From Verrucomicrobiales bacterium (GTDB lineage Bacteria > Verrucomicrobiota > Verrucomicrobiia > Limisphaerales > UBA9464): DNA of 64,000 nucleotides. The stretch spans positions 1-64,000 of the forward strand of contig JAIYBC010000030.1 of assembly GCA_027488845.1 (NCBI GenBank). Reading direction: 5' to 3'. Of this stretch, positions 34,828 through 60,168 are shown piece by piece; positions within the stretch are counted from its first letter, which is position 1; every line of letters starts with the position of its first letter. Below the pieces are notes generated by a model. The model was given only the letters and a program-made list of their open reading frames with translations. It did not search any database and was not told the origin of the DNA. The translations under genes were made by a program, and so were the position numbers.

Positions 34828-35340
34828 TCATTCGTTTGGTGATTCAGACGTGGACAGCAGTCCGTCGAGGTCCAGCGCCCGGGTGTACATGGCCAGTTCC
34901 CCTTGGGCGGTCCGTGGCCAGGCGGACTGGGGACGATCCCAATACAGTTCCACGCCATTGCCATCCGGATCGCGCAGGTACAGGGCCTCGCTGACCCCGT
35001 GGTCCGCGGCGCCGTCCAGCTCAACGCCCGCCCGCAGCACCCGCGCCAAGGCGTCGGACAACTCCCGCCGCGTCGGATAGAGGAACGCCACATGGTACAA
35101 TCCCGTGGTCCCGGGCGCCGGAGGCCGCCCGCCCGCGCTCTCCCAGGTGTTGAGCCCGATGTGATGGTGGTAGCCCCCGGCGGAGAGGAAGGCCGCCTGG
35201 CGCCCGAACCGCTGGGTCACCTCGAAGCCCAGCACCCCGTGGTAGAACGCGATCGCCCGTTCCAGATCCGCAACCTTCAGGTGCACATGGCCGACTCGGA
35301 CCCCGGGATCGATGGGCTTCACCGCAACGCTCTGCGTCAT
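34828..35340 (-). CDS. VOC-family (glyoxalase/dioxygenase fold) metalloprotein
   Basis: A 170-residue vicinal-oxygen-chelate protein. The two beta-alpha-beta-beta-beta units show HVHLKVADLERAIAFYHGVLGF (in pieces: VHLKVADLERAIAFY, GVLGFEV) and HVAFLYPTRRELSDALARV. Likely metal ligands are His in HVHLKV, His in LYHVAFL, and Glu in GNGVELYWD, the last within the conserved DPDGNGVELY. GGYHHHIGLNTW is typical of the catechol-2,3-dioxygenase-like branch (CatE/YfiE type). The substrate is unknown. It is encoded alone, with its start facing the DNA glycosylase gene. Confidence 0.85.
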   Translation of the reverse strand: MTQSVAVKPIDPGVRVGHVHLKVADLERAIAFYHGVLGFEVTQRFGRQAAFLSAGGYHHHIGLNTWESAGGRPPAPGTTGLYHVAFLYPTRRELSDALARVLRAGVELDGAADHGVSEALYLRDPDGNGVELYWDRPQSAWPRTAQGELAMYTRALDLDGLLSTSESPNE

Positions 35341-35434
35341 GGGGCGACACTGGCCTGCGAAGGCCGCGGCGTCAGGCCGAAGACGCGCCCGGTTCGCGCT
35401 GGGCTTCGCGAACGAAACCGGGATCCCATCGGAG

Positions 35435-35986
35435 ATGGAGCGGTTGCCTCGCGCCTTCTACGACAGGGAAACGGCCCTCGTCGCCCAGGACCTCCTGGGC
35501 AAGCACCTCGTCCATGTCGTGGATGGCTTGGAGCGGGTCGGCCGGATCGTGGAGGTCGAAGCCTATCTCGGTCCGCACGATCGGGCTTCCCATTCCTCGA
35601 AGGGCCTGACCCCGCGGACCCGGACGATGTTCGGGCCCCCGGGGCATGCCTACGTGTACCTCATCTACGGGATGCACTGGTGCCTGAACGTCGTCACCGA
35701 GCGGGAAGGCCACGGAGCGGCGGTGTTGTTGCGGGCGGTGGAACCCATCCGAGGCCTTTCGGGGCGCACCCAAGGACCGGGACTGTTGTCGAAGGCCTTC
35801 GGCATCAGCCGGAGCCAGGATGGCGAGGACCTGCTGGGCGAAGCGCTCTACCTGACCGAACCGCCGGAGACCGTGTCGATGGAAATCGTGCGCCGTCCCC
35901 GGATCGGCGTGGACTACGCCGGCGCCTGGGCCCGTCGACTCTTGCGCTTCTACATTCGGGACAATCCGTATGTCTCCAGGCGATGA
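35435..35986 (+). CDS. AAG-family 3-methyladenine DNA glycosylase
   Basis: A 183-residue base-excision repair glycosylase of the AAG/MPG fold, which removes alkylated and deaminated purines. Diagnostic motifs are VEVEAYLGPHDRASHS (the Glu before AYLG is the catalytic residue), TPRTRTMFGPPGHAYVYLIYG, MHWCLNVVT, VLLRAVEP and TQGPGLLSKAFGI. The length fits bacterial members (180-205). I chose ATG 35435. Longer in-frame starts would run into the divergent VOC gene and add residues not seen in the family. Confidence 0.93.
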   Translation: MERLPRAFYDRETALVAQDLLGKHLVHVVDGLERVGRIVEVEAYLGPHDRASHSSKGLTPRTRTMFGPPGHAYVYLIYGMHWCLNVVTEREGHGAAVLLRAVEPIRGLSGRTQGPGLLSKAFGISRSQDGEDLLGEALYLTEPPETVSMEIVRRPRIGVDYAGAWARRLLRFYIRDNPYVSRR

Positions 35987-36033
35987 TTCGCGATTCGTGA
36001 TTCCGGATCTCGGTCAGACACCCACTGGCACCA

Positions 36034-36059
36034 GTAGGAGACGACGTAAGGAGTCTCAC
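36034..36059 (-). repeat. Island repeat core, copy A (minus strand)
   Basis: Reverse complement of the 26-base core GTGAGACTCC...CGTCTCCTAC, with one mismatch to copies C, D and E. Only the core is present, not the flanking modules. Confidence 0.75.
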
Positions 36060-36136
36060 CCCGTCGGAATTCGAGACTCTCGATTCAAGACTTGTGATTC
36101 TGGATACCGGATACTGCCAAGGATTCTCACGCACCT

Positions 36137-36162
36137 GTAGGGGACGACGTGAGGAGTCTCAC
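36137..36162 (-). repeat. Island repeat core, copy B (minus strand)
   Basis: Reverse complement of the same 26-base core, one mismatch to copies C, D and E, 103 bases from copy A and in the same orientation. The core includes a small hairpin GTGAG-gagt-CTCAC. Confidence 0.75.
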
Positions 36163-36325
36163 TCCATCGGAAGTCCGGCGTGTACGAGTCACCTTGCACT
36201 CATGTGGGAGGACACGGATTGCACGGAAACGAGTGCCATCCAGTGGTCGGCCAAAGTGATGACGGTTCCTGACCTGTCCTCAGAAGACATCCGCGACGTG
36301 GGGAAGCGCGCGAGCGTCATGGAGT

Positions 36326-36347
36326 GCGCGAGTCCGCTCGCGCTTTT
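36326..36347 (+). terminator. Terminator-like hairpin in the island edge
   Basis: A perfect 7-bp stem GCGCGAG / CTCGCGC with TCCG loop is followed directly by TTTT. No gene ends nearby, so it may be part of a repeat and not a functional terminator. Confidence 0.4.
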
Positions 36348-36540
36348 CCCCACCTATCTCGCCCCCGCTGGAATCGTTCCCGCTGAGACGCAGAGTGGGC
36401 TGAAGAGCTGGACACGGATTTCACGGATTGGATTCGGACGCCGGCTCCCCGGCTCCCTCAGACCTCCCCGCGCCACTGCGGGAAGTCAGATCGCTCGCAG
36501 AGGTTCTCCCACTGTGTCCAACTCTTTGGGGTCCCCTGTC

Positions 36541-36578
36541 GCCTGACGCCTGACGCCTGACGCCTGACGCCTGACGCC
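36541..36578 (+). repeat. 7-base tandem array (GCCTGAC)5.4
   Basis: Five perfect units of GCCTGAC plus GCC. A similar 7-base array of another sequence lies at 34675. Likely slippage-prone. Confidence 0.9.
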
Positions 36579-36659
36579 AGTATTCCCGACTCGTTTCTTG
36601 ACCGAAAGTTCCAACTGCCCACAGTGGATTCAGATCGGCAAAACCAAACTCTTCGAGCC

Positions 36660-37874
36660 ATGGCCACAAGTAAAACACCTAAAGGAAGTGTTAAAATCTT
36701 GGAAGACTACGCCCTGTCGCTTTGCGGCACCATGCGTGGTGTTGATGATGAAATTCAGCTTATCGCGGGTAAGTGGCCCGAAATCTTTGACATCAGCCAC
36801 AATCCGACGTGCATTGCTCGAATTCCAGTCAGAAAAAAGCGTCTTCTGGAACTCTCCTCAAAGCATCCAGAAGTCGTCAACTCCAATTGGGTGCCGCGAA
36901 ACGGACATGTTTACATGAATGTTTCGCTCGAAGGCTCTGTATCGGTTGAGGAAATCAAGTCGTGGATTGATGAGGGGTATCGCTTGGTTTTGGATAAACT
37001 GAAGCCCGCAGAAAGGTTTTTGGTCATGATGGGAGGGCGCCCCTACAATGAGGAAGACGCCATCCAGGAGTTGATCAGATATTACGACCTGGATGAGCTG
37101 AAGAGTGAAATTCTTCAGGTCTCAAGGACCGCCATTCTACTTCGTACTTCCAAATGCGCGGAGAAGAATATTCCATTGGGTGCCAGTAAGATTGGCGGCA
37201 ATCCAGATCTGCCGGCGAGCGCGGTTTGGCCTACGCATACCTCCGGCCGCCCGCTCGCATTTCTAGCCCAGATCAATTTGCAGGATTTGAGAATGCTAGG
37301 GAGACCCTTCGATAGGTTCCCGACCGCTGGCCTTCTCTCACTTTACTCAGTTTGGGGTTGGATGCTACCCGATGATGCGGACCCTCAAATCCCAGATGGG
37401 CCGGAATCATCGGATTGGACACAGTGCATCCATACTGGAACCGAGGGACCGCTTGAGCGTCGAAAGCAACCGAAGGGAACTCACCGATCCAAGCCAGCAC
37501 CGGTGACACCGATCTTGATTCGGTCCTTTCCGAGCGATCTATCTGAGCCTTCCATCAAGATGCAGACGTGGACTGCAAAGCAAAAGAAGCGATATTTGGA
37601 ATTCTACTGCGCATTTACCGACCTCCAGATTCGCGCCTTGGCTCCAAACCAACTGGGAAGCTGGCACCAGTTGGGGGGCTATGGGCGCTTCCAGCAAACC
37701 CCGCCTGAATTGATTCGCTCTGGAGAATATGAACTTTTTCTACAACTCGGATCCGATGATTGGGCATCAGATATGATGTGGGGAGATGCCGGAGAACTGT
37801 CATTTCTGCTGAAATCGGATAGTTTCCAGAAGGGACAATTTAATGAATTCAGCGCCGAGCTCCAATGTGGCTAG
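36660..37874 (+). CDS. YjbR/MmcQ-like and YwqG/DUF1963 fusion protein
   Basis: A 404-residue cytoplasmic protein starting at ATG 36660 (an in-frame GTG lies 12 codons upstream). Residues about 25-120 resemble the MmcQ/YjbR fold (NSNWVPRNGHVYMNVSLEG, then IDEGYRLVLDKLKP). Residues about 150-404 match YwqG/DUF1963 (SKIGGNPDLPASAVWP, LAFLAQINLQDL, LLSLYS, LFLQLGSDDWASDMMWGDAG, SFLLKSD). Neither domain has a firmly known function. GC content is far below that of the neighbouring genes to the left, and codons include many A/T-ending ones, suggesting transfer. It is the first gene of the accessory island. Confidence 0.75.
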   Translation: MATSKTPKGSVKILEDYALSLCGTMRGVDDEIQLIAGKWPEIFDISHNPTCIARIPVRKKRLLELSSKHPEVVNSNWVPRNGHVYMNVSLEGSVSVEEIKSWIDEGYRLVLDKLKPAERFLVMMGGRPYNEEDAIQELIRYYDLDELKSEILQVSRTAILLRTSKCAEKNIPLGASKIGGNPDLPASAVWPTHTSGRPLAFLAQINLQDLRMLGRPFDRFPTAGLLSLYSVWGWMLPDDADPQIPDGPESSDWTQCIHTGTEGPLERRKQPKGTHRSKPAPVTPILIRSFPSDLSEPSIKMQTWTAKQKKRYLEFYCAFTDLQIRALAPNQLGSWHQLGGYGRFQQTPPELIRSGEYELFLQLGSDDWASDMMWGDAGELSFLLKSDSFQKGQFNEFSAELQCG

Positions 37875-37891
37875 TTTGGTCTCATCGGGGA

Positions 37892-37917
37892 ACCGCTTTG
37901 GGAACACGTCTCAGGGC
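37892..37917 (+). repeat. Island repeat module 1, copy F
   Basis: 26 bases beginning ACCGCTTTGGGAACACGT, differing at about three positions from the module-1 sequences at 40028, 40698 and 41491. The rest of the modular repeat is missing here. Confidence 0.65.
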
Positions 37918-38062
37918 ATGACGGTTTTGGCCCTGCCCCACAGTAAACTGAAAACTCGATCAGATTGGCCACAAAGAGACGGAGTGCACGGAGGAACACG
38001 TTCCTTGTCCGCTGCTTACTGCCTGTTGTACTGACCTTTGCCGTTCACTCTCCAATGCAACA

Positions 38063-38113
38063 AGGGACACGTCCCTATGCGACATAAAATCAGTATCCTA
38101 CGGACGTGTCCCT
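38063..38113 (+). repeat. 51-bp palindrome-ended element, copy 1
   Basis: Arms AGGGACACGTCC and GGACGTGTCCCT are perfect 12-bp inverted repeats; the left arm is itself nearly palindromic. The 51 bases match those at 39120-39170 at all but about four positions. The two copies bracket the genes at 38188 and 38715. Confidence 0.8.
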
Positions 38114-38187
38114 AATGAGTCCTGCCACGGTTGCAATGGGTATCTCACTGGGGCCGGGTTGCTGAGTCTTGATCGTGCGCAAAAGTT

Positions 38188-38625
38188 ATGAAGAAGACGT
38201 TTGTTATCGCAATTTCATTGGTCGTCGCCGTCTTGGCCGCCGCCGTTGGAAAGGGGGTGGTGCGCAGCTATTTCGATGGACGCAAGGAAGCGAAGGTTGA
38301 AGAAGCCCTCGTCACCGCGGAGCGTCAGTTGAATGCGATGGTTCCCAAGATGGTTGACGATTCGACTCGTCTGGATGGAGCGAAGGCGGGTCCTGGGAAG
38401 AAATTTACCTATACCTACACTTTGGTCTCTCGCAAGGCATCGGAAATCAATTCCGGTGAATGGAAGCAGAAAGTGGTTCCAGTGATTCGGAAGAACATGC
38501 GGGAAACGCCGGGTTTGCGAACCCTATTTCAAGTCGGTACTACTGTTAATTACAGATATCTCGGTAGCGATGGCGCTTTGATTGACGAGATTGTGATGAC
38601 TCCTGCAGAGGCGAACACACGATGA
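38188..38625 (+). CDS. Hypothetical membrane-anchored protein
   Basis: A 145-residue protein of unknown function. Residues 5-22 form one hydrophobic helix (FVIAISLVVAVLAAAVG) preceded by KK, which makes an N-terminal membrane anchor with the rest outside. The remainder is soluble: a helical stretch rich in Lys and Glu (30-60), then beta-like KKFTYTYTLVSR and TTVNYRYLGSDG. I recognise no family. GC is lower than the chromosome. It is the first of two genes between the paired 51-bp elements. Its length and small soluble domain would suit many things, including an immunity-like factor, but nothing shows this. Confidence 0.65.
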   Translation: MKKTFVIAISLVVAVLAAAVGKGVVRSYFDGRKEAKVEEALVTAERQLNAMVPKMVDDSTRLDGAKAGPGKKFTYTYTLVSRKASEINSGEWKQKVVPVIRKNMRETPGLRTLFQVGTTVNYRYLGSDGALIDEIVMTPAEANTR

Positions 38626-38714
38626 AGAATTCACCGTAAGCCTTGGACCTGCATGAACCGGTTATTGGACTCGGCTTATGGCGTTACCCGTTTGGGCCGA
38701 ATACCCGTAGGCAC

Positions 38715-39035
38715 ATGAAAAACATCCAAGTCATTGATAGTGCCGAGAACTGTGTCTTCGATGTCTTCGCAGCGACAGAGGCTGAGTTCGGGCTAATCTT
38801 TCCTCTTGGAGAGGATGTTGCATTTATAGACGAGGTGTTTGTCAGGAATCAAGAGAGCGTAGAAGCTCTTCAGGGCGCTTTGAAGAGCATAGGAAGTCGC
38901 AGGGTCCCGAAATCCTCGGTTGCTGGCATCCATGGGGTTCTGTTCTGCGGTCTTCCCGAGAGGAAGAAGTATTATCCAACCCGACGCGATGAGGAGGCCC
39001 GCAACCCTGATGGTACCCGCCTTCGGGCTTTATGA
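38715..39035 (+). CDS. Hypothetical cytoplasmic protein
   Basis: A 106-residue acidic protein of unknown function from ATG 38715 (the frame stays open upstream to 38643). The first half is beta-like (IQVIDSAENCVFDVFAATEAEFGLIF). The second ends with a basic, charged tail (SSVAGIHGVLF, KKYYPTRRDEE). The GIHG-x-LF ... YYPTRR arrangement looks like a conserved signature, but I cannot name it. It follows the gene at 38188 by 89 bases and is the second gene of the bracketed pair. Confidence 0.6.
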   Translation: MKNIQVIDSAENCVFDVFAATEAEFGLIFPLGEDVAFIDEVFVRNQESVEALQGALKSIGSRRVPKSSVAGIHGVLFCGLPERKKYYPTRRDEEARNPDGTRLRAL

Positions 39036-39119
39036 TCGTATTTCTGATGCCCAAAAAGGCATTCCGTCTGGCGGCTTCGCCTTGACGTGCCGTATCCAGT
39101 TGAGATTGGGCCTGCCACA

Positions 39120-39170
39120 AGGGACAGGTACCTATGCGACATGATATCAGTATCCTACGGACGTGTCCCT
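39120..39170 (+). repeat. 51-bp palindrome-ended element, copy 2
   Basis: Same element as 38063-38113, in the same orientation, about 1.06 kb away. The left arm has diverged (AGGGACAGGTAC), so the inverted repeat is less perfect, while the right arm GGACGTGTCCCT is intact. Confidence 0.8.
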
Positions 39171-39279
39171 TATGGGTTTCCATTGACAGCTGAAACCGTT
39201 AAAACCATCGCATCCATCGGCGGCTCAAAGGAAGTGATAGAGAGCACAAGAAGGTTGCAGAGATCAAATTTTTCCTTGG

Positions 39280-39966
39280 ATGAACGCTCGAAAATCAATC
39301 CTTTTCATGTTTTTTCTTGTAGTAATTGTGCTTCTTTTGAGCTGGTGGGGTAGTCTCTCTTTGACTACTTCAAGCAGCGGCCCAAGTCGGCTCTCGAAAG
39401 CCGTTAAAGCAGGAGACCATGGACATGTTGAAAAGCTTTTGAGGTCAGGAGTGAATCCTGATGATACAGGAAAAGATAAGATCAGCCCATTAGGGCGTGC
39501 AATCCTGAAGGGTGATCTGCGAAGCACGGAGATGCTCTTGACGGCTGGAGCCAGTTTGAATAAGGAAGTATCTTGGCTAACACCACTAGGTCTTGCCGCC
39601 GGTTCCTCTTCTGTTGCAATGACAAAACTCCTCCTCAATTCTGGGGCGGATCCCAACGGTACAAATCAGAATGGGAGTACGGCAATTATGTTTGCAGCTA
39701 GGTCATCTACAACAAGTAGCATGGCGATTCTGGTTGAAGCGGGAGCTAATGTAAATATCACAAACAAGTTTGGCTATTCTCCGATACTCGAAGCAATGGC
39801 GAGTGGTTCGTATGAGAACGCGTTGTGGCTTATTGATCATGGGGCAAATCCGTCTGTAACAAATATTAATGGGATGCATCCGCTTCAATTTCTAGATGGT
39901 CCCGCGCTCGTTCGTAAAGATGCCGATGCCTTGCGAGAGCTCCGGAAGAGATTTGTAGGGCCATGA
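39280..39966 (+). CDS. Ankyrin-repeat protein with N-terminal membrane anchor
   Basis: A 228-residue protein. A membrane helix (SILFMFFLVVIVLLLSWWG, about 6-24) is followed by five ankyrin repeats from about residue 36 to 205. Examples are AVKAGDHGHVEKLLRSGVNP, LLTAGASLNK, KLLLNSGADPNGTNQNGSTAIMFAA (shown in part), LVEAGANVNITNKFGYSPI and LIDHGANPSVTNINGMHPL. Ankyrin stacks bind proteins; the partner is unknown. GC is clearly low, near the minimum for the window. It stands alone between the 51-bp element and repeat copy C. Confidence 0.85.
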   Translation: MNARKSILFMFFLVVIVLLLSWWGSLSLTTSSSGPSRLSKAVKAGDHGHVEKLLRSGVNPDDTGKDKISPLGRAILKGDLRSTEMLLTAGASLNKEVSWLTPLGLAAGSSSVAMTKLLLNSGADPNGTNQNGSTAIMFAARSSTTSSMAILVEAGANVNITNKFGYSPILEAMASGSYENALWLIDHGANPSVTNINGMHPLQFLDGPALVRKDADALRELRKRFVGP

Positions 39967-40027
39967 TTGGTAGATATGCTGCATTGGCGCATCTTCAATC
40001 TCATCAGAAGACCTAGGGAACGCATGG

Positions 40028-40155
40028 ACCGCCTTGGGGACACGTCTCATGGCACTACACTTAGCGGATTGGTGTGAGACTCCTCACGTCGTCTCCTACG
40101 TCGGGGCGGTCCGTGTCGGTGTTCCGTTGGCGGCTTGGCGAATTTGCGTGAGGTC
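40028..40155 (+). repeat. Modular island repeat, copy C (complete)
   Basis: Module 1 (40028-40053, ACCGCCTTGGGGACACGTC...) and module 2 (40065-40110, 46 bases identical in copies C, D and E, starting CGGATTGGTGTGAGACTCC) are followed by module 3 (40126-40155, GTTGGCGGCTTGGCGAATTT...). Module 3 recurs nearly exactly at 41584 and, inverted, at 45484. Confidence 0.85.
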
Positions 40156-40198
40156 CCCCCGCTCCCATCGGCTGGGGAGTCCTATACCTCGACAAGCG

Positions 40199-40224
40199 AC
40201 GGTATTGGGGACACGTCCCAAGGA
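40199..40224 (+). repeat. Extra module-1-like palindrome
   Basis: Contains TTGGGGACACGTCCCAAGG, a near-perfect palindrome. It joins the module-1 sequence family to the arms of the 51-bp elements, since both share GGGACACGTC. Confidence 0.65.
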
Positions 40225-40283
40225 ACTCGTGAGTTGAGTCACCAAGAATCCACACGTACAAAAGAGATCCGCAGCAGCCTCCT

Positions 40284-40670
40284 GTGAACGAGGACGAATA
40301 TATCTCTGCACTTCGAGCGCGATGGCCGCGTGGTTCGACTTCGAGCGAGCCCAATTTCGAGGCGACGCCAGAGACCATCGCGATTGCGGATGAGGCTGTT
40401 CTCGCATTCCCGAACTCTCCCAAGCTCTGGTGTATGCGAGGCAACCTGATTGAGCTCGCGTCGGAGTCCTGCCCGCACTCGCTGGACGATGCCGGATTAA
40501 GTTTTCTCAGGGCCATCGCCGTCGACCCACTTTTTGTGGAGGCCTACGAGGAGGCTGCACACTTCTATGACGCGGTGATGCCCGACGAGCAGCGAGCCGC
40601 CTTCTACTTTGCCGAGTTTCGGCGTCTTCAACAGCTGGCGACACCATCCACCAGCTCGAACACCCAATGA
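40284..40670 (+). CDS. Small helical-repeat (TPR-like) protein
   Basis: A 128-residue soluble protein from GTG 40284. It begins MNEDEYISALRARWPRG and has helices with TPR-like spacing (IAIADEAVLAFPNSPKLWCMRGNL, given in part; LSFLRAIAVDPLFVEAYEEAAHFYD). The pattern A-x-P-x-S-x-x-L-W and A-x-x-x-D-P fits a pair of tetratricopeptide-type repeats. The function is unknown. It is bounded by repeat copies C and D. Confidence 0.65.
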   Translation: MNEDEYISALRARWPRGSTSSEPNFEATPETIAIADEAVLAFPNSPKLWCMRGNLIELASESCPHSLDDAGLSFLRAIAVDPLFVEAYEEAAHFYDAVMPDEQRAAFYFAEFRRLQQLATPSTSSNTQ

Positions 40671-40697
40671 CAGCGTCAGCGATGTGGTCCAAAGGGA

Positions 40698-40780
40698 GCC
40701 GCCTTGGGGAGACGTCTCGGGGCTCTACACTGCTCGGATTGGTGTGAGACTCCTCACGTCGTCTCCTACGTCGGGGCGGT
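40698..40780 (+). repeat. Modular island repeat, copy D (modules 1 and 2)
   Basis: Module 1 at 40698-40723 (with GGAGACGTCTC in place of GGACACGTCTC) and module 2 at 40735-40780, identical over 46 bases to copies C and E. The following GTTCCGTTGG matches the lead-in to module 3, but then the sequence diverges into GGGTTCGAATCCCG. Confidence 0.85.
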
Positions 40781-40852
40781 TCCTGTCAGGGTTCCGTTGG
40801 CTGGGTTCGAATCCCGATTGATGCGGGTCCCGGTTTCCTCCAATTTCTTGCC

Positions 40853-41077
40853 ATGTCCGCCCTGCTCGATCGCATTTCCGTCAATCCGAAGCAGTGCGGA
40901 GGCCGCCCGTGTGTCCGCGGGATGCGCATCCGCGTCAGCGACGTCCTGGACCTTTTCGCCTCCGGTCTCGACGCCTCCCAGATTCTTCAAGAGATGCCCG
41001 ACCTCGAGGCGGACGACCTCAAGGCGTGCCTCATTTTTGCGCGCCGCCGCATCGACCATCCGCTGCTCGCTGCATGA
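40853..41077 (+). CDS. DUF433 family antitoxin-like protein
   Basis: A 74-residue protein with the complete DUF433 signature: RISVNPKQCGGRPCVRGMRIRV (in part NPKQCGGRPCVRG), then a winged-helix-like VLDLFASGLDASQILQEMP and DLEADDLKACLIFARRR. DUF433 proteins are usually encoded just upstream of PIN-like proteins and are taken as their antitoxin and DNA-binding autorepressor. Here the stop overlaps the start of the PIN-like gene by four bases (ATGA), so the two are translationally coupled. Confidence 0.85.
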   Translation: MSALLDRISVNPKQCGGRPCVRGMRIRVSDVLDLFASGLDASQILQEMPDLEADDLKACLIFARRRIDHPLLAA

Positions 41078-41415
41078 CAATCTGGGTGGACGCGCAGTTG
41101 TCGCCTCGGCTCGCCCGCTGGATCACAGACAACTTTCAGGTCGAGGCCATTCCGCTTCGCGACTTGGGCCTTCGGGACGCTGAAGACGAGGAGATCTTCG
41201 CTGCCGCACGAATCGCCGGGGCAATTGTTCTGACCAAAGACAGCGATTTCGTGCATCTGCTGGAGAGGAAAGGCAGCCCGCCCAAGGTCCTCTGGCTCAC
41301 CTGCGGCAACACCTCTGAGGCGGCATTGCAGCAGATCCTCTCTCGGAATCTCTCCACGGCTCTCAGCTTCCTGGCCGATGGCGAGAATCTTGTCGAAATC
41401 GGCGCTACGCAGTGA
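41074..41415 (+). CDS. DUF5615 PIN-like toxin
   Basis: A 113-residue PIN-fold protein of the DUF5615 type. Acidic residues for metal binding are visible: Asp6 in WVDAQLSP, the DAEDEEIF cluster, and Asp in LTKDSDFVHLL (the VLTKDSDF strand is the strongest family mark). The end of the protein is the usual helical region. Family members are presumed RNases. Its start lies inside the DUF433 stop. It is the last island gene, followed by repeat copy E. Confidence 0.88.
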   Translation: MTIWVDAQLSPRLARWITDNFQVEAIPLRDLGLRDAEDEEIFAAARIAGAIVLTKDSDFVHLLERKGSPPKVLWLTCGNTSEAALQQILSRNLSTALSFLADGENLVEIGATQ

Positions 41416-41490
41416 GGTAAGCTAGCGGACCCAGGTTTGGAAACGGACTGCCTTCGCCATTGTTCCTTGGTCCCCCGATCTTGCCCGGAA

Positions 41491-41613
41491 ACCGGCTTGG
41501 GGACACGTCTCAGGGCGCCACCCGGATTGGTGTGAGACTCCTCACGTCGTCTCCTACGTCGGGGCGGTCCTTGTCGGGGTTCCGTTGGCGGCTTGGCGAA
41601 TTTGCGTGAGGTC
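41491..41613 (+). repeat. Modular island repeat, copy E (complete)
   Basis: Module 1 at 41491-41516, module 2 at 41523-41568 (identical to C and D), module 3 at 41584-41613 (identical to C over 30 bases). It ends 28 bases before the stop of the minus-strand ATPase gene, marking the right edge of the island. Confidence 0.85.
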
Positions 41614-41640
41614 TCGCCCGCCCCGGTCGGCCAGCGAATC

Positions 41641-42336
41641 CTACACCCCGACGGTGTCGATCTGCTCGTAGGCGTGGTTCAACCACATCTTCACCCGCTG
41701 GCGCTCCAGGATCCCGAGGCCGTTGGGGTCGTTCTCAGAGCGGTTGCGCGCCGCCCAGAAGTTGGTGTTCCCGGCGTCGATCTTGTTGATGACGGTCTCG
41801 TGCAGGCGCTTGAGCGGGATGATTTTCGCTCCCAAGGCCAGGGCCGGTTCCTTGAGTCCGGACTGTTCCAACAGGTCGAAGTTCTCCCCGCGCAGCTGGT
41901 TCAGGACCAGCACGTGGCGCACGCGCGGACCGAAGGTCTCCAGACGTCGGCGCAGGAGGTCCACCGAGTCCTTGCCCGAATCCATCACATGCCAGTAGGT
42001 CACGGTGTAGCCGCCTTCCGCGGCCGTCTCCAGCACCCCGGACTCATCCATCCAACGCACCAGGGCGTCGTGGGTCTGGGCGGCGAGGTCCACGAGGATC
42101 CGCTTCTCCGGGTTCGCGATCGCGGACTCGATGATCAGGTCGAGGCTTTCGTAGCGGTCCACCACCACCGGCGAGGCGAACGGGGTGTAGAAGCGGAGCA
42201 GGGAACCGTGGGAACGGTCGGTGTCGAAGCCGACGAAGGGGAGGTTCCGGTCGATGAAGTACTGTGCGACCACCCGTGCGACCACGGATTTGCCGACCCC
42301 GCCCTTTTCGCCGCCGATGAAATGGATGTTGGCCAT
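41641..42336 (-). CDS. ParA/MinD-like P-loop ATPase
   Basis: A 231-residue ATPase from ATG 42336. It starts MANIHFIGGEKGGVGKSVVA with the deviant Walker A KGGVGKS (both Lys), then VGFDTDRSHGSLLRFY (switch region) and RILVDLAAQTHD (Walker B). Further on are YWHVMDSGKDSVDLL and VLNQLRGENFD. It resembles short ParA-type proteins sometimes annotated as mobilization or plasmid-partition ATPases. There is no ParB or relaxase nearby. It could place something in the cell or be a remnant of a mobile element beside the island. The product ends with a helical tail lacking known motifs. Confidence 0.75.
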   Translation of the reverse strand: MANIHFIGGEKGGVGKSVVARVVAQYFIDRNLPFVGFDTDRSHGSLLRFYTPFASPVVVDRYESLDLIIESAIANPEKRILVDLAAQTHDALVRWMDESGVLETAAEGGYTVTYWHVMDSGKDSVDLLRRRLETFGPRVRHVLVLNQLRGENFDLLEQSGLKEPALALGAKIIPLKRLHETVINKIDAGNTNFWAARNRSENDPNGLGILERQRVKMWLNHAYEQIDTVGV

Positions 42337-42616
42337 GATGTGAAGTGGGAGGATGGGGCGAACGCGGCGCGAGGCTTCCCCGACCGGGGAGGCGTGTTGC
42401 TTGGGTCCGACACACTCCGACAGGTCGGGAAGGTGCCCATGGGGACCGGGTCCTGACCATGGAATTGTGGTCCCGACCCCGCCGGGCGCGGCCGGGATTG
42501 TCGTGGAACGGGCCGGGTGTTTCGTGACACCGGGCGTTTTCAGGGTGCAGGGTGCGGGTCCTTGCGGGGAAACCCCGATCCCGCAGACGCAGCCAAACTC
42601 CGAATCCAACCATCCC

Positions 42617-56654: not shown

Positions 56655-59356
56655 ACCCCGCCGCCGAAAACGCACGTCGCCAGCTCGCCGCCGCAGGTCG
56701 CCGGAAGGACTTCGCACGTCGCCTCGGCACCGGCGTCGCCGTCGGTTCGCTCCTCCTCCTCGCGATCCTCCTGGTGGCGTTGGTCGACTACTGGCTGCTC
56801 CTGCCCGTGGCCGCCCGCTGGACCGCGTTGGTGCTGGTCACCGGGCTCCTCGCCGGCGGCCTGTTCCGCCTGATCACGACCCTGCGTCGCGCCACCGGCC
56901 TGAAGGAGGCGGCGTTGGACGTGGAGTCGCGGACGCCGGAGGCCGGATGCGAGGTTTCCACCGCCGCGGAATACCTTTCCGGATCGAGGGATCCTTCCCG
57001 CGAATACGAGGCCGAGCTGGCCGAGGCGCTCGAGGCCCGTGCGGCGGCCCGGGTGGCCGTCGACGACGCCCCTTACAACCGGCGGTTCCTCCTGCCCACC
57101 TTCGCCGCCGGTGTCGTGGTCTTCGGCGGACTCGTCGCCTTCCTGGTTCTCGCCCCGTCCTCGGGCACCGCCTTCCTCCGCACCGCCGCCCCGTGGTCCA
57201 AGGCCAGCTTCACCCTGCTCGACGTCTCCCCGCGCGGCGGCGAATACCCCGTCGGCGGCCAGGTCGCCTTCACCAACCGCATCGCCGGACGTCCGCCGAA
57301 GTCCGTGGAGTTCCAATGGCGCGAAACGCCGTCGGCCCCGTGGACCCGCGTCCCGCTGGAAGTCGTGTCCAACACCGTCGCCTACCACTCGCTGCTCGTC
57401 GCGACCTCGGGCGTGTACCGCGTGGTCGCCGGCGACGCCGTCTCGCCCGAGTATCCGTTGACCGCCTATGTCCCGCCGCGGGTGGAGACGTTGGCCGTCG
57501 GCCTCACGCCGCCCGCCTACACGAGGATCCCTCCCAGCGAGACGACCGAAGCCGGCTTCAACGTGGTCCGCGGCTCGCGTGCGGTCTTCCGCATCGCCGG
57601 CAACGTCCCGCTGGGCGGTGCCGCGTTGAGGTTCACCAACGGGGTCGCCCAGCAGCTCAAGCCGCTCGGTTCCAACCTCTGGACCGCCGACCTCCTGGTC
57701 ACCAACGACAACGCCTACCGCTTCGACCTCACCGACACCCGCGGGCGTCCGGGCATCGACACCACGACCCATGTCGTCCGCGCGCTTCCCGACAACCCGC
57801 CCAAGGTCGACATCGCCGAGCCGGGCGAGGACATCCGGGCCGACCCCGGGGACATCGTGCCGTTGAAGGTCGTGGCCTCCGACGACTTCGGGATCGCCGG
57901 CATCCGCATCGTGTACCACAAGCTGGGCGAACCGGAGAAGGTGCTGGAGGTGCGCGACCGCCACGTGAAGGACGGCGAGACGCTGGCCGCCGGGGTGATC
58001 CGGCTGGAGGACCTGAAGCTGAAGCCGTACGAGGTGGTCGCCTACCACGCGGAAGCCCGGGACAACAACGACTTCGACGGACCCGGCATCGGGCGTTCCC
58101 CGACGTACTTCATCGAGATCACCGACAAGACCTCCCCGCCGCCGTCGAAGCGCAAGGGGCCGCCGCAGCAGCGTCTCAACCTGCTCGCGATCCAGAAGGG
58201 CATCGTGGCGGACACCACAGCCCTGCCCTCGAACGCCCCGACCAACGCGTACGCGGAGATGGCCCGGCGCCAGCGGGACGCCCGGGAGTTCGCGGAGATG
58301 TACCGTCTGAAGCTGGAGGAGGGCGGGGCTCCGTTCGCCGCGCAGGGGGCGATGGAGTCGGCGGTGGAGGAGATGGGGAAGGCGGCCAAGCGCCTGGACC
58401 AGCGCAGCCGCGGCGAGGCCCTGCCGCCGGAGGAGAAGGCGTTGGCCCACCTCTACGACGCGGTGAAGGCGATGCCGGCGTTGCGCAACCTGCCGACCCA
58501 GCCTTCCGAGCTTTCGCAGCAGACCCCCGCGGAGGCCGCCCCGAAGAGCCCCGTGGACATCGTCCTCGAGGAACTGAAGAAGAAGCCGAAGGAGACCCCG
58601 AAGCTGGCCGAGCTGGAACAGGCGTTGAAGGACGCCCGCGAACTCGCGCGCGCCCAGGGTGAGCTCGCCGGCCGCATGGAACGTCCCCAGTCGGGCCAGC
58701 CCGCCCAGGGTCAGGGCGAAGGAGAAGGCGAGGGCGAAGGCCAGGGCAAGGGACAGGGTGCCGGCAAGGATTCGAAGGAGGCCAAGGAGGCCCAGCGGTT
58801 GAAGGAGATGGCCGAGCGCGCGAAGCAACGGGAGGCGTCCGGCCAAGGACCGGGCCAATCGGATTCGAAGGAGACCGCCCAGGCCAAGGACGGCAAGGGC
58901 CAGGGAGAAGGCAAAGGCAAGGGGAAGGGGAAGGGCCAAGGTCAGGGAGAAGGCGCAGGCCAGGGCCAGGGGCAAGGAAAGGGCGAAGGCGAGGGCGAGG
59001 GCGAAGGCCAGATGGCCGAGGCGCAGGAGAAGCTGCGTCAGAAGGCCGAGCAGTTGGCGGAGAAGATCCGGCAGTTGGTCGACAAGGATTCCAAGCAGGG
59101 CCAGGGCGCCGCGAAGCGCCTGGAGGAGGCGTCCCGCCAGATGGCGGAGGCGGCGAAGGCGTTGCGTCAGGGGAACCGTGCGGGTGGCGGATCCGCCGGC
59201 ACCATCGGGGCGGCCGGCGCCAGTTCCGCCGCCGACCTCCTGGAGAAGGCGATCTCCGGCAAGCCCGAGCTGACGGACGTCTCCGCGGAGGAGGCCCCGA
59301 AGAAGTTCGAGGGCCAGATCAGCGAGTACTTCAAGCGCCTGACCCGCGCCGAATGA
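56651..59356 (+). CDS. DUF4175-like membrane protein with Gly/Gln/Glu/Lys-rich tail
   Basis: A 901-residue protein overlapping its neighbours by ATGA at both ends. Two membrane helices (about 28-48 and 58-75), a third near 155-175, and a large periplasmic Ig-like region (about 190-480) resemble DUF4175. Landmarks are DVSPRGGEYPVGG, LTPPAYTRIPPS and KVVASDDFGIAGIRIVYH. Helical segments (500-680) follow, then a low-complexity tract of GQGEGEGK type (about 683-790). Another helical region (790-901) has SRQMAEAAKALRQGN. DUF4175 proteins are common in MoxR/vWA operons; their role is unknown, possibly in cell-envelope integrity. Confidence 0.8.
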   Translation: MNPAAENARRQLAAAGRRKDFARRLGTGVAVGSLLLLAILLVALVDYWLLLPVAARWTALVLVTGLLAGGLFRLITTLRRATGLKEAALDVESRTPEAGCEVSTAAEYLSGSRDPSREYEAELAEALEARAAARVAVDDAPYNRRFLLPTFAAGVVVFGGLVAFLVLAPSSGTAFLRTAAPWSKASFTLLDVSPRGGEYPVGGQVAFTNRIAGRPPKSVEFQWRETPSAPWTRVPLEVVSNTVAYHSLLVATSGVYRVVAGDAVSPEYPLTAYVPPRVETLAVGLTPPAYTRIPPSETTEAGFNVVRGSRAVFRIAGNVPLGGAALRFTNGVAQQLKPLGSNLWTADLLVTNDNAYRFDLTDTRGRPGIDTTTHVVRALPDNPPKVDIAEPGEDIRADPGDIVPLKVVASDDFGIAGIRIVYHKLGEPEKVLEVRDRHVKDGETLAAGVIRLEDLKLKPYEVVAYHAEARDNNDFDGPGIGRSPTYFIEITDKTSPPPSKRKGPPQQRLNLLAIQKGIVADTTALPSNAPTNAYAEMARRQRDAREFAEMYRLKLEEGGAPFAAQGAMESAVEEMGKAAKRLDQRSRGEALPPEEKALAHLYDAVKAMPALRNLPTQPSELSQQTPAEAAPKSPVDIVLEELKKKPKETPKLAELEQALKDARELARAQGELAGRMERPQSGQPAQGQGEGEGEGEGQGKGQGAGKDSKEAKEAQRLKEMAERAKQREASGQGPGQSDSKETAQAKDGKGQGEGKGKGKGKGQGQGEGAGQGQGQGKGEGEGEGEGQMAEAQEKLRQKAEQLAEKIRQLVDKDSKQGQGAAKRLEEASRQMAEAAKALRQGNRAGGGSAGTIGAAGASSAADLLEKAISGKPELTDVSAEEAPKKFEGQISEYFKRLTRAE

Positions 59357-60168
59357 AACGCATCCGGTTCATCCATTGGAACGCGGAGGAGGCCATGGAA
59401 CGCACGGCCCGCCTGGTCGCGCTCGGCCATGAGGTCCTCGGCGACACCCCGCCCGAGGGCGCCTCGGTGGTGAAGGAGCTTCGTCGCGTCCGCCCGCAGG
59501 CGGTGGTCATCGACCTGTCCCGGCTTCCGGCCCACGGACGCGAGATCGGCCGGGCGATGCGGCTTTCGTCGACGCTCCGGGCGGTGCCGATCGTCTATGT
59601 CGGAGGCGACCCGGCCAAGCGGGAGATCGTCCGCGGGCTCCTGCCCGACGCGACCTACACCACCTGGGAACGGATCGGACCCGACCTCGCCCGCACGCTG
59701 GAGAATCCCCCGTCCCAGCCGCACGTGCCGCCCGACCATCCCGGTGCGAACACCTCCCGGCCGGTCACCGGAAAACTCGGCTTCAAGACCGGCATGACCG
59801 TCGCCCTCGTCGGCGCCCCGGCCCCGGTGGCGGAGTCGCTCCGCACGGAGTCGCCGGCCGGGGTTGCGTTCCGGAACGACCTCAAGGCGCGTGCCGACCT
59901 GGCCCTGTTCTTCGCCGCGGACACGGACGCCTTCGGCCGCGCCCTCCGACAGGTATCCACCCGGGCCGACCTGCCCGCGTTCTGGATCGCCTGGCCGAAG
60001 CTGGCTTCCGGGGTGAAGACCGACCTCACCCAAGGTCGGATCCGCGACGCCGCCCGGGACGCCGGCTTCGTGGATTCGAAGATCTGCGGCATCGACGCGG
60101 TCTGGTCCGGGCTGCGGTTCTCGCGGATGCGTCAGCCGGCGGTCCGGCGTGAGGAGTCGTTCGAATGA
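59353..60168 (+). CDS. Pseudo-receiver and DUF3052 fusion protein
   Basis: A 271-residue cytoplasmic protein coupled by ATGA overlaps at both ends. Residues about 1-115 fold like a response-regulator receiver (RPQAVVIDLSRLPAHGREI, VPIVYVGGDPAKRE). The usual acceptor position is kept (Asp of VIDLSRLP). However, the acidic pair near residue 12 is displaced (HWNAEEA), and the conserved Thr and Lys are missing (VYVGGD, TYTTWER). Residues about 140-260 match DUF3052 (LGFKTGMTVALVGAP, ADLALFFAADTDAF, PAFWIAWPKLAS, TDLTQGRIRDAARDAGFVDS, DAVWSGLRFSR). DUF3052 function is unknown. This fusion in a vWA operon is unusual. Confidence 0.7.
   Translation: MKRIRFIHWNAEEAMERTARLVALGHEVLGDTPPEGASVVKELRRVRPQAVVIDLSRLPAHGREIGRAMRLSSTLRAVPIVYVGGDPAKREIVRGLLPDATYTTWERIGPDLARTLENPPSQPHVPPDHPGANTSRPVTGKLGFKTGMTVALVGAPAPVAESLRTESPAGVAFRNDLKARADLALFFAADTDAFGRALRQVSTRADLPAFWIAWPKLASGVKTDLTQGRIRDAARDAGFVDSKICGIDAVWSGLRFSRMRQPAVRREESFE

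Follow-up and report, generated by a model that had tools for sequence, protein, structure and literature searches.

Known systems and the present locus

The closest described systems are the TIRtron or TIRYT elements (Di Nocera 2013, PMC3733652; subclass 2.1 of PMC6006769), in which, according to the sections of these papers drawn on here, a RAYT-like Y1 transposase gene is flanked by terminal inverted repeats (TIRs). The same sections give the TIR consensus for such transposases as GGGGWSAS (PMC3733652 section 16; PMC6006769 section 20) and describe the repeats as occurring also in dimers and clusters (PMC3733652 section 16). The family described below has the same arrangement of gene and ends. 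It differs in that its right ends bracket accessory genes in arrays, a layout that goes unmentioned in those sections of PMC3733652 and PMC6006769.

The locus, in a genome assigned to the Verrucomicrobiales (G000), also invites comparison with REPINs, or REP doublets, which are mobilised by a RAYT. The likeness is that inverted short arms can form a hairpin (strong in one copy of the repeat, weak in the other) and that a RAYT family is present in the same genomes. Unlike a REPIN, however, the element has only two full-length copies in this genome, well short of a high copy number, and GTAG does not lie 5′ of the palindrome: on the minus strand of the 51-bp element it comes 3′ of the arm. Given the copy number and the GTAG position, membership of the REPIN family is not claimed.

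Integron arrays share several general properties with the locus: direct repeats spaced by roughly one small gene, a cargo of accessory genes, a variable segment adjoining the end of the enzyme's own element and, for one of the two genes considered here, a family that is a cassette gene elsewhere. Unlike an integron, the locus has no attC-like site that we could find in the window and no adjacent IntI, and the candidate enzyme is a Y1 transposase. One-ended capture by ISCR/IS91 elements is similar in that an HUH-type enzyme carries flanking genes at one end, but it involves another HUH branch and other ends, whereas here each successive gene is followed by a right end.

By the window we mean the whole 64,000-nucleotide stretch of DNA analysed, which lies on a 228-kb contig. 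Its relevant features are:

1-373 (contig start), plus strand: 3′ end of a RAYT transposon copy, 84% identical to one at the opposite contig end
36624-37874, plus strand: DUF1963 gene on the left side of the island, with no counterpart in the G012 locus
38056-38120, plus strand: miniature TIR-pair element, copy 1; left-end arm 38063-38074, right-end arm 38102-38113; agrees at both ends with the RAYT element of stretch L090
38188-38625, plus strand: gene 1, encoding 145 aa with a hydrophobic N-terminus and matching no Pfam family
38715-39035, plus strand: gene 2, in an ORF that opens at a TTG at 38643
39113-39177, plus strand: miniature TIR-pair element, copy 2; degenerate left arm 39120-39132, right-end arm 39159-39170
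39183-40189, no strand: segment swapped for a different one in G013; holds an ankyrin-repeat gene at 39280-39966
40028-40160, minus strand: right-end-like TIR GACGTGTCCCCAAGGCGG with a GTAG-type palindrome module
40190-40224, minus strand: TIR at which identity with G013 resumes
40284-40670, plus strand: cassette gene, 128 aa, common to G013; weak TPR match, below cut-off
40698-40830, minus strand: TIR and GTAG module; breakpoint of identity with G012
40853-41415, plus strand: DUF433 and DUF5615 cassette genes, present in G012, no match in G013:C255
41490-41618, minus strand: TIR and GTAG module; in G012 an extra 1.17-kb segment (encoding a 160-aa hydrophobic protein) lies at its outer edge

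The island has a G+C content of 50-61% in 2-kb windows, compared with 65-72% for the rest of the window, and its Pfam matches are to DUF1963, ankyrin, DUF433, DUF5615 and, weakly, TPR. We take the DUF433/DUF5615 pair to be toxin-antitoxin-like. A second palindromic repeat, GTAG-type GTAGGAGACGACGTGAGGAGTCTCAC, occurs at 36028-36175, 40065-40160, 40735-40830 and 41523-41618 and adjoins several of the terminal repeats; copies of it are found on other contigs too. Elsewhere in the window, the AT skew is strong (+0.27) at 58001-60000, with a sign opposite to that of the preceding 2 kb.

The 51-bp repeats as transposon ends

The first-pass annotation described two 51-bp direct repeats, at 38063-38113 and 39120-39170, with about 47 matching bases and exactly two genes between them. 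This description was borne out: 47 of the 51 bases are identical, the copies are in direct orientation at a spacing of 1057, and they enclose two ORFs, 38188-38625 and 38643-39035, of which the second has an ATG at 38715. Homology between the copies reaches 38056-38120 and 39113-39177, that is, 65 bp at 89%. A search of the window allowing up to three mismatches returned copy 1 alone, copy 2 having four, and returned nothing in 100 shuffles. Palindromic ends had been ascribed to both copies. This is exact for copy 1 only, which has perfect 12-bp arms, because the left arm of copy 2 (AGGGACAGGTACC) is degenerate; folded as single-stranded DNA, copy 1 gave z values of −4.3 (plus strand) and −5.3 (minus strand), and copy 2 gave −1.9 and −1.5. 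The suggested link to the repeat of the surrounding island is real, since GGGGACACGTC recurs at 40037, 40208 and 41500. At these three positions GGGGWSAS fits GGGGACAC, and the 51-bp copies read AGGGACAC, one base off.

A genome-wide check for further pairs, proposed at the time, found the full-length element at these two places only. There is no third full-length copy on the 69 contigs, and other places match over at most 32 nt. A composite transposon ended by the two repeats was considered and rejected, as the unit contains no transposase and G000 has no second full-length pair.

Many of the partial matches are close to contig ends, at a distance of a few hundred bases or less, and many such contig ends in G000 hold the last 57-406 bp of a transposon. 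Its terminus is CGGTAGCCTACGGACGTGTCCC or a variant of it, and a YWANSGGNTCC-type tail comes next. A right-end-like sequence also occurs at 530-561 of the window, after the RAYT 3′ end at 1-373. An intact transposase gene was found upstream of this end on G012:C178 and G005:C401, in both cases encoding 348 aa, with 97% mutual identity. The G012 transposon has the intact gene with both ends, AAGGGACACGTCC...GGACGTGTCCCTTATG; in this stretch (L090) AAGGGACACGTCCCTCTGCGAGG is present in more than one copy left of the gene and CGGTAGCCTACGGACGTGTCCCTTATGAG lies to its right. The G005 stretch (L091) has the gene and right end only, its contig starting 44 bp before the gene. The G005 protein matched Pfam Y1_Tnp (5.6e-9) and NCBIfam REP_Tyr_transpos (E 1.5e-14), the latter with 54 bits, which is under that model's 80-bit cut-off. 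The HUH and Y---NP motifs of class 2 are present in the translation as HFH and YIDLNP, Y---NP being the class 2 signature given in PMC6006769 section 19. The G000 assembly contains fragments only and no intact transposase of this subfamily. G000 C24:5756-6457 (L111) holds a gene of a second RAYT subfamily, 41% identical over 236 residues, and a cassette pair lies a few kb away.

With one base added, the 51-bp element reads AAGGGACACGTCCCTATGCGAC...CCTACGGACGTGTCCCT, a left and a right transposon end fused. By this sequence match, the repeats are miniature, REPIN- or MITE-like versions of a RAYT/TIRYT-type transposon, its two ends joined and its gene apparently deleted.

Distribution and orientation of the core motif

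The exact core motif, GGACGTGTCCC, has 60 copies in this genome, and its reversed control has none. Among the 39 genomes searched, four are core-rich, all of the same genus (60, 45, 27 and 17 copies), and the remaining genomes have 0 to 4. Transposase matches with E of 0.001 or better were found in 32 of the 39. Thus the transposase family is widespread, and the distribution of this terminal repeat is narrow. The family reaches 43-45 matches per genome, fragments counted, in G019, G020 and G035; three G019 copies have ACAAAGGGACAGGT in common upstream of the gene, and inspection by eye of 10 G035 copies gave no common terminal repeat.

Neighbouring cores 400-1500 bp apart are direct in 8 of 10 cases in G000 (P 0.055) and in 3 of 4 in G013 (pooled, 11/14); the count leaves out G012, and G005 has no core pair in this range. 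The bias toward direct over inverted pairs is weak, and on its own the orientation bias is not significant. G020, which has a related transposase in many copies with a different terminal repeat (ATAGGGAGGTTGGCACC), gave 0/5 direct pairs and none direct among 60 matches, a modest control because its five inverted pairs have whole-transposon spacing. Short tandem duplications of transposon ends also occur.

The first-pass annotation had set its reading against that of an element scattered singly with no tendency to bracket genes. The 51-bp element is not scattered, 8/10 neighbouring cores are direct and the seven pairs examined enclose ORFs, yet many of the 60 cores are solitary, or clustered with no gene between them.

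Gene cassettes between right ends

Successive right ends enclose 0.6-1.3 kb of AT-richer accessory genes. Seven of the eight direct pairs were examined for ORFs (C29 was left out), and all seven hold an ORF of at least 145 aa. In six of them the longest ORF is on the strand of the right end, and the G+C content of the segments is 0.45-0.58. Pfam searches with ten cassette products gave WG repeats, SMI1/KNR4 and Gmx_para_CXXCG, and no match at E 0.01 for the other seven. The SMI1/KNR4 and Gmx_para_CXXCG genes lie in neighbouring segments of L081 (G000:C39). We assume both to be immunity-type families, which suggests orphan immunity cargo. Some segments have no clear gene: that of G012:C59 contains a 5′ transposase fragment but no convincing ORF, and that of C4 has small antisense ORFs only.

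Turnover at transposon ends in sister genomes

Both flanks of the window island match a single G012 contig (G012:C19), at 93.6 and 96.2%. This contig also carries the DUF433/DUF5615 pair (94.8%). It has nothing corresponding to 36458-40698, and an additional 1.17 kb adjoins the outer edge of the 41490 repeat. In G013, contig C255 is 95.4% identical over the 3′ portion of gene 1, all of gene 2 and copy 2. A different segment, containing a 227-aa ORF, follows there before identity resumes at 40190. After the module near 40735 it has other sequence than the DUF433/DUF5615 pair. Gene 2 and the right repeat are at the same place in G013, not at a new site, because the locus that follows also shares the flank to the right of the island, which speaks against a composite transposon as well; the left side of the unit is out of view there, since the contig begins inside gene 1.

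The earlier proposal of mobile-type direct repeats around cargo stands in its first part, but excision by recombination between the two copies was not seen. What is missing from G012 is the whole island 36458-40698, more than the two-gene unit, and the change in G013 sits just outside copy 2.

Replaced segments were also found in the pairs C69/C204, C29/C231, C4/C93 and C56/C246. The last is the least secure and may not be orthologous, because its left HSP (303 bp, 85.5%, against 97.6% on the right) is partly repeat. In G000:C69/G013:C204 a transposon end is common to both and the next segment differs. Two more variable loci emerged from mapping transposon-end flanks, which gave no clean empty site: the distance from the aligned transposon end to the common flank is 52 versus 1067 bp in G000:C44/G012:C59, and 188, 1343 and 297 bp in G000:C26/G012:C345/G013:C46. 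The long G012 segments (C59 and C345) have 47-48% G+C, and that of C345 contains ORFs of 75 and 165 aa following successive right ends. Past the left flank, G013:C54 has different sequence, mostly of 63-67% G+C.

Breakpoints were counted in six hand-picked collinear comparisons, in stretches chosen for holding the motif; repeat-to-repeat HSPs, tandem duplications and the C44/C59 and C26/C345/C46 loci were left out. Within the span of core motif and tail lay 22 of 38 breakpoint sides, where 1.75 were expected, and 16 lay elsewhere. Since the two sides of one event are not independent, events were counted as well: 14 of 19 had at least one side at the ends (1.7 expected), and five were not at the motif. 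None of 200,000 simulations reached the observed side or event count. With C56/C246 and two breakpoints that are at transposon ends by construction removed, 11 of 14 events and 16 of 28 sides remained (expected 1.29 and 1.33). At the window locus alone, six of eight events were at ends (0.69 expected). Several breakpoints lie 8-13 nt past the last base of GTGTCCC. The comparison covers four genomes of one genus in fragmented assemblies, and repeats are where assemblies fail.

Genes 1 and 2 and their integron relatives

Neither gene matched a family above its cut-off. In a phylum sample of 387 genomes, 7 had relatives of gene 1, the genome studied here among them, and a plasmid search with gene 1 gave no match. 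For gene 2, the ATG at 38715 is supported as the start because the alignments with seven of the eight proteobacterial relatives begin at residue 20-25. The genome scan gave nine loci for gene 2, one at 91% on a 4388-base G013 contig and eight proteobacterial at 58-64%. Nine plasmid records also matched, all at less than 60% identity (Leptolyngbya, Rhizobium, Ochrobactrum).

Several of the proteobacterial relatives are in integron surroundings. Using an attC-like pattern of YTAAC...GTTAR with matching ends, which a divergent attC could escape, sites were found at or beside the gene in L145 (P. duriflava), L146 (Azotobacter), L148 (Stutzerimonas) and L149 (Aquabacterium), and L147 is an Aquabacterium cassette array with many such sites. 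Matches in L150 and L151 are away from the gene, and L152 has none. The same pattern, which finds these positive controls, gave no attC-like site in the window at 35001-42500. Eleven further stretches of these genomes gave one match (L144), A+T-rich and chance-like, and ten gave none. A stricter pattern found none in the window, yet also missed L145, L146 and L148; a third variant gave single matches in the window, L081 and L163, a level that shuffles reach for the window and L081. Thus a family known from integron cassettes lies between transposon ends at this locus.

G000 does encode an integron integrase, at C11:250593-251543 (L160/L163; TIGR02249, 430 bits against a cut-off of 265), its only match above cut-off, and none is adjacent to the array. 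This gene is 0.55 kb from a contig end whose last bases are identical to those of C50, and the final pattern gave no attC-like site in its stretch, L163. A literature search on integrons in Verrucomicrobia gave no matching paper within its coverage.

Origin of the gene arrangement

The repeats are ends of a multi-copy transposon family, they bracket genes, and breakpoints in orthologous loci lie at them. We therefore favour the reading, to which we assign a probability of roughly 0.6, that miniature transposon ends punctuate an accessory-gene island in which the two genes form one cassette, cassettes being gained, lost and exchanged at the outer TIR edges, most likely by the Y1 transposase acting in trans. 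As judged from sequence comparison, the data suggest that the ends mark borders where small foreign genes swap in and out, in an integron-like manner without recognisable integron sites.

The same island could be an ordinary one into which miniature elements were inserted, with host homologous recombination or replication slippage then swapping or deleting segments and the transposase idle after insertion. Some of the changes do look like recombination over longer repeats, the DUF433/DUF5615 pair of the window lying between two 96-bp modules and G013 differing past the module near 40735, and the short tandem duplications of ends also count in its favour. Most of the common end sequences, however, are just 20-30 bp, which is short for RecA, and a number of breakpoints are sharply placed at the outer edge where they might have been spread. 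We consider this unlikely as the general explanation, though it deserves serious weight, and part of the turnover was probably homologous recombination over the 96-bp modules.

It is distinctly improbable that the island is a decayed integron, whose cassettes were placed by the genome's own IntI and whose attC sites were later invaded or replaced by transposon ends. The attC-like sites beside gene 2 relatives in Aquabacterium, P. duriflava, Azotobacter and Stutzerimonas, and the well-scoring integrase on contig C11, are what such a history would leave, but the integrase is on a different contig, and the final pattern found no attC-like site in its stretch, at 35001-42500 or in 10 of the 11 further stretches. 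Unrelated terminal-repeat insertions, combined with mosaic contigs assembled at multi-copy repeats, might also produce the pattern, and many G000 contigs do start or stop in a transposon end. Against such an artefact, the window contig is 228 kb long, a single G012 contig aligns with both flanks (93.6 and 96.2%), and the junction of gene 2 with copy 2 is common to two assemblies, so that we give it hardly any credence.

For exchange of cassettes at transposon ends, the family of the transposase suggests a mechanism. In IS200/IS605 elements, the Y1 enzyme cuts single-stranded ends beside a hairpin, forming a circle that is inserted elsewhere. Here, the Y1 transposase would act in trans on single-stranded ends, cutting at the outer TIR edge, often 8-13 nt past GTGTCCC, and, as with the IS200/IS605 enzymes, the cut ends would be joined to one another or to circular cassettes. 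Right ends in direct repeat would allow release of the intervening segment together with one of the ends, for which the outer edge of a further end would offer a natural acceptor. This scheme of right-end release and acceptor would account for the one-sided conservation of the ends and for the breakpoint positions. Catalysis by the transposase, a single-stranded or circular intermediate and the function of the cargo are inferred, and the Y1 enzyme is best regarded as the candidate mover of the cassettes.

A broader proposal, which we put forward tentatively and hold to be possible rather than probable, is a RAYT-family gene-capture system, in which accessory genes, at least one of them from an integron cassette family, form cassettes each ending in a right end and are inserted or exchanged at such ends, both beside the transposase and at unlinked arrays. 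A literature search over titles and the starts of abstracts, with all preprints and most subscription papers outside its coverage, gave no description of RAYT-bounded gene cassettes among the matches listed. If true, the proposal would provide a second, transposase-based analogue of the integron. If the ends do delimit exchangeable cassettes, horizontal gene flow would be a new role for an enzyme family that is common but obscure.
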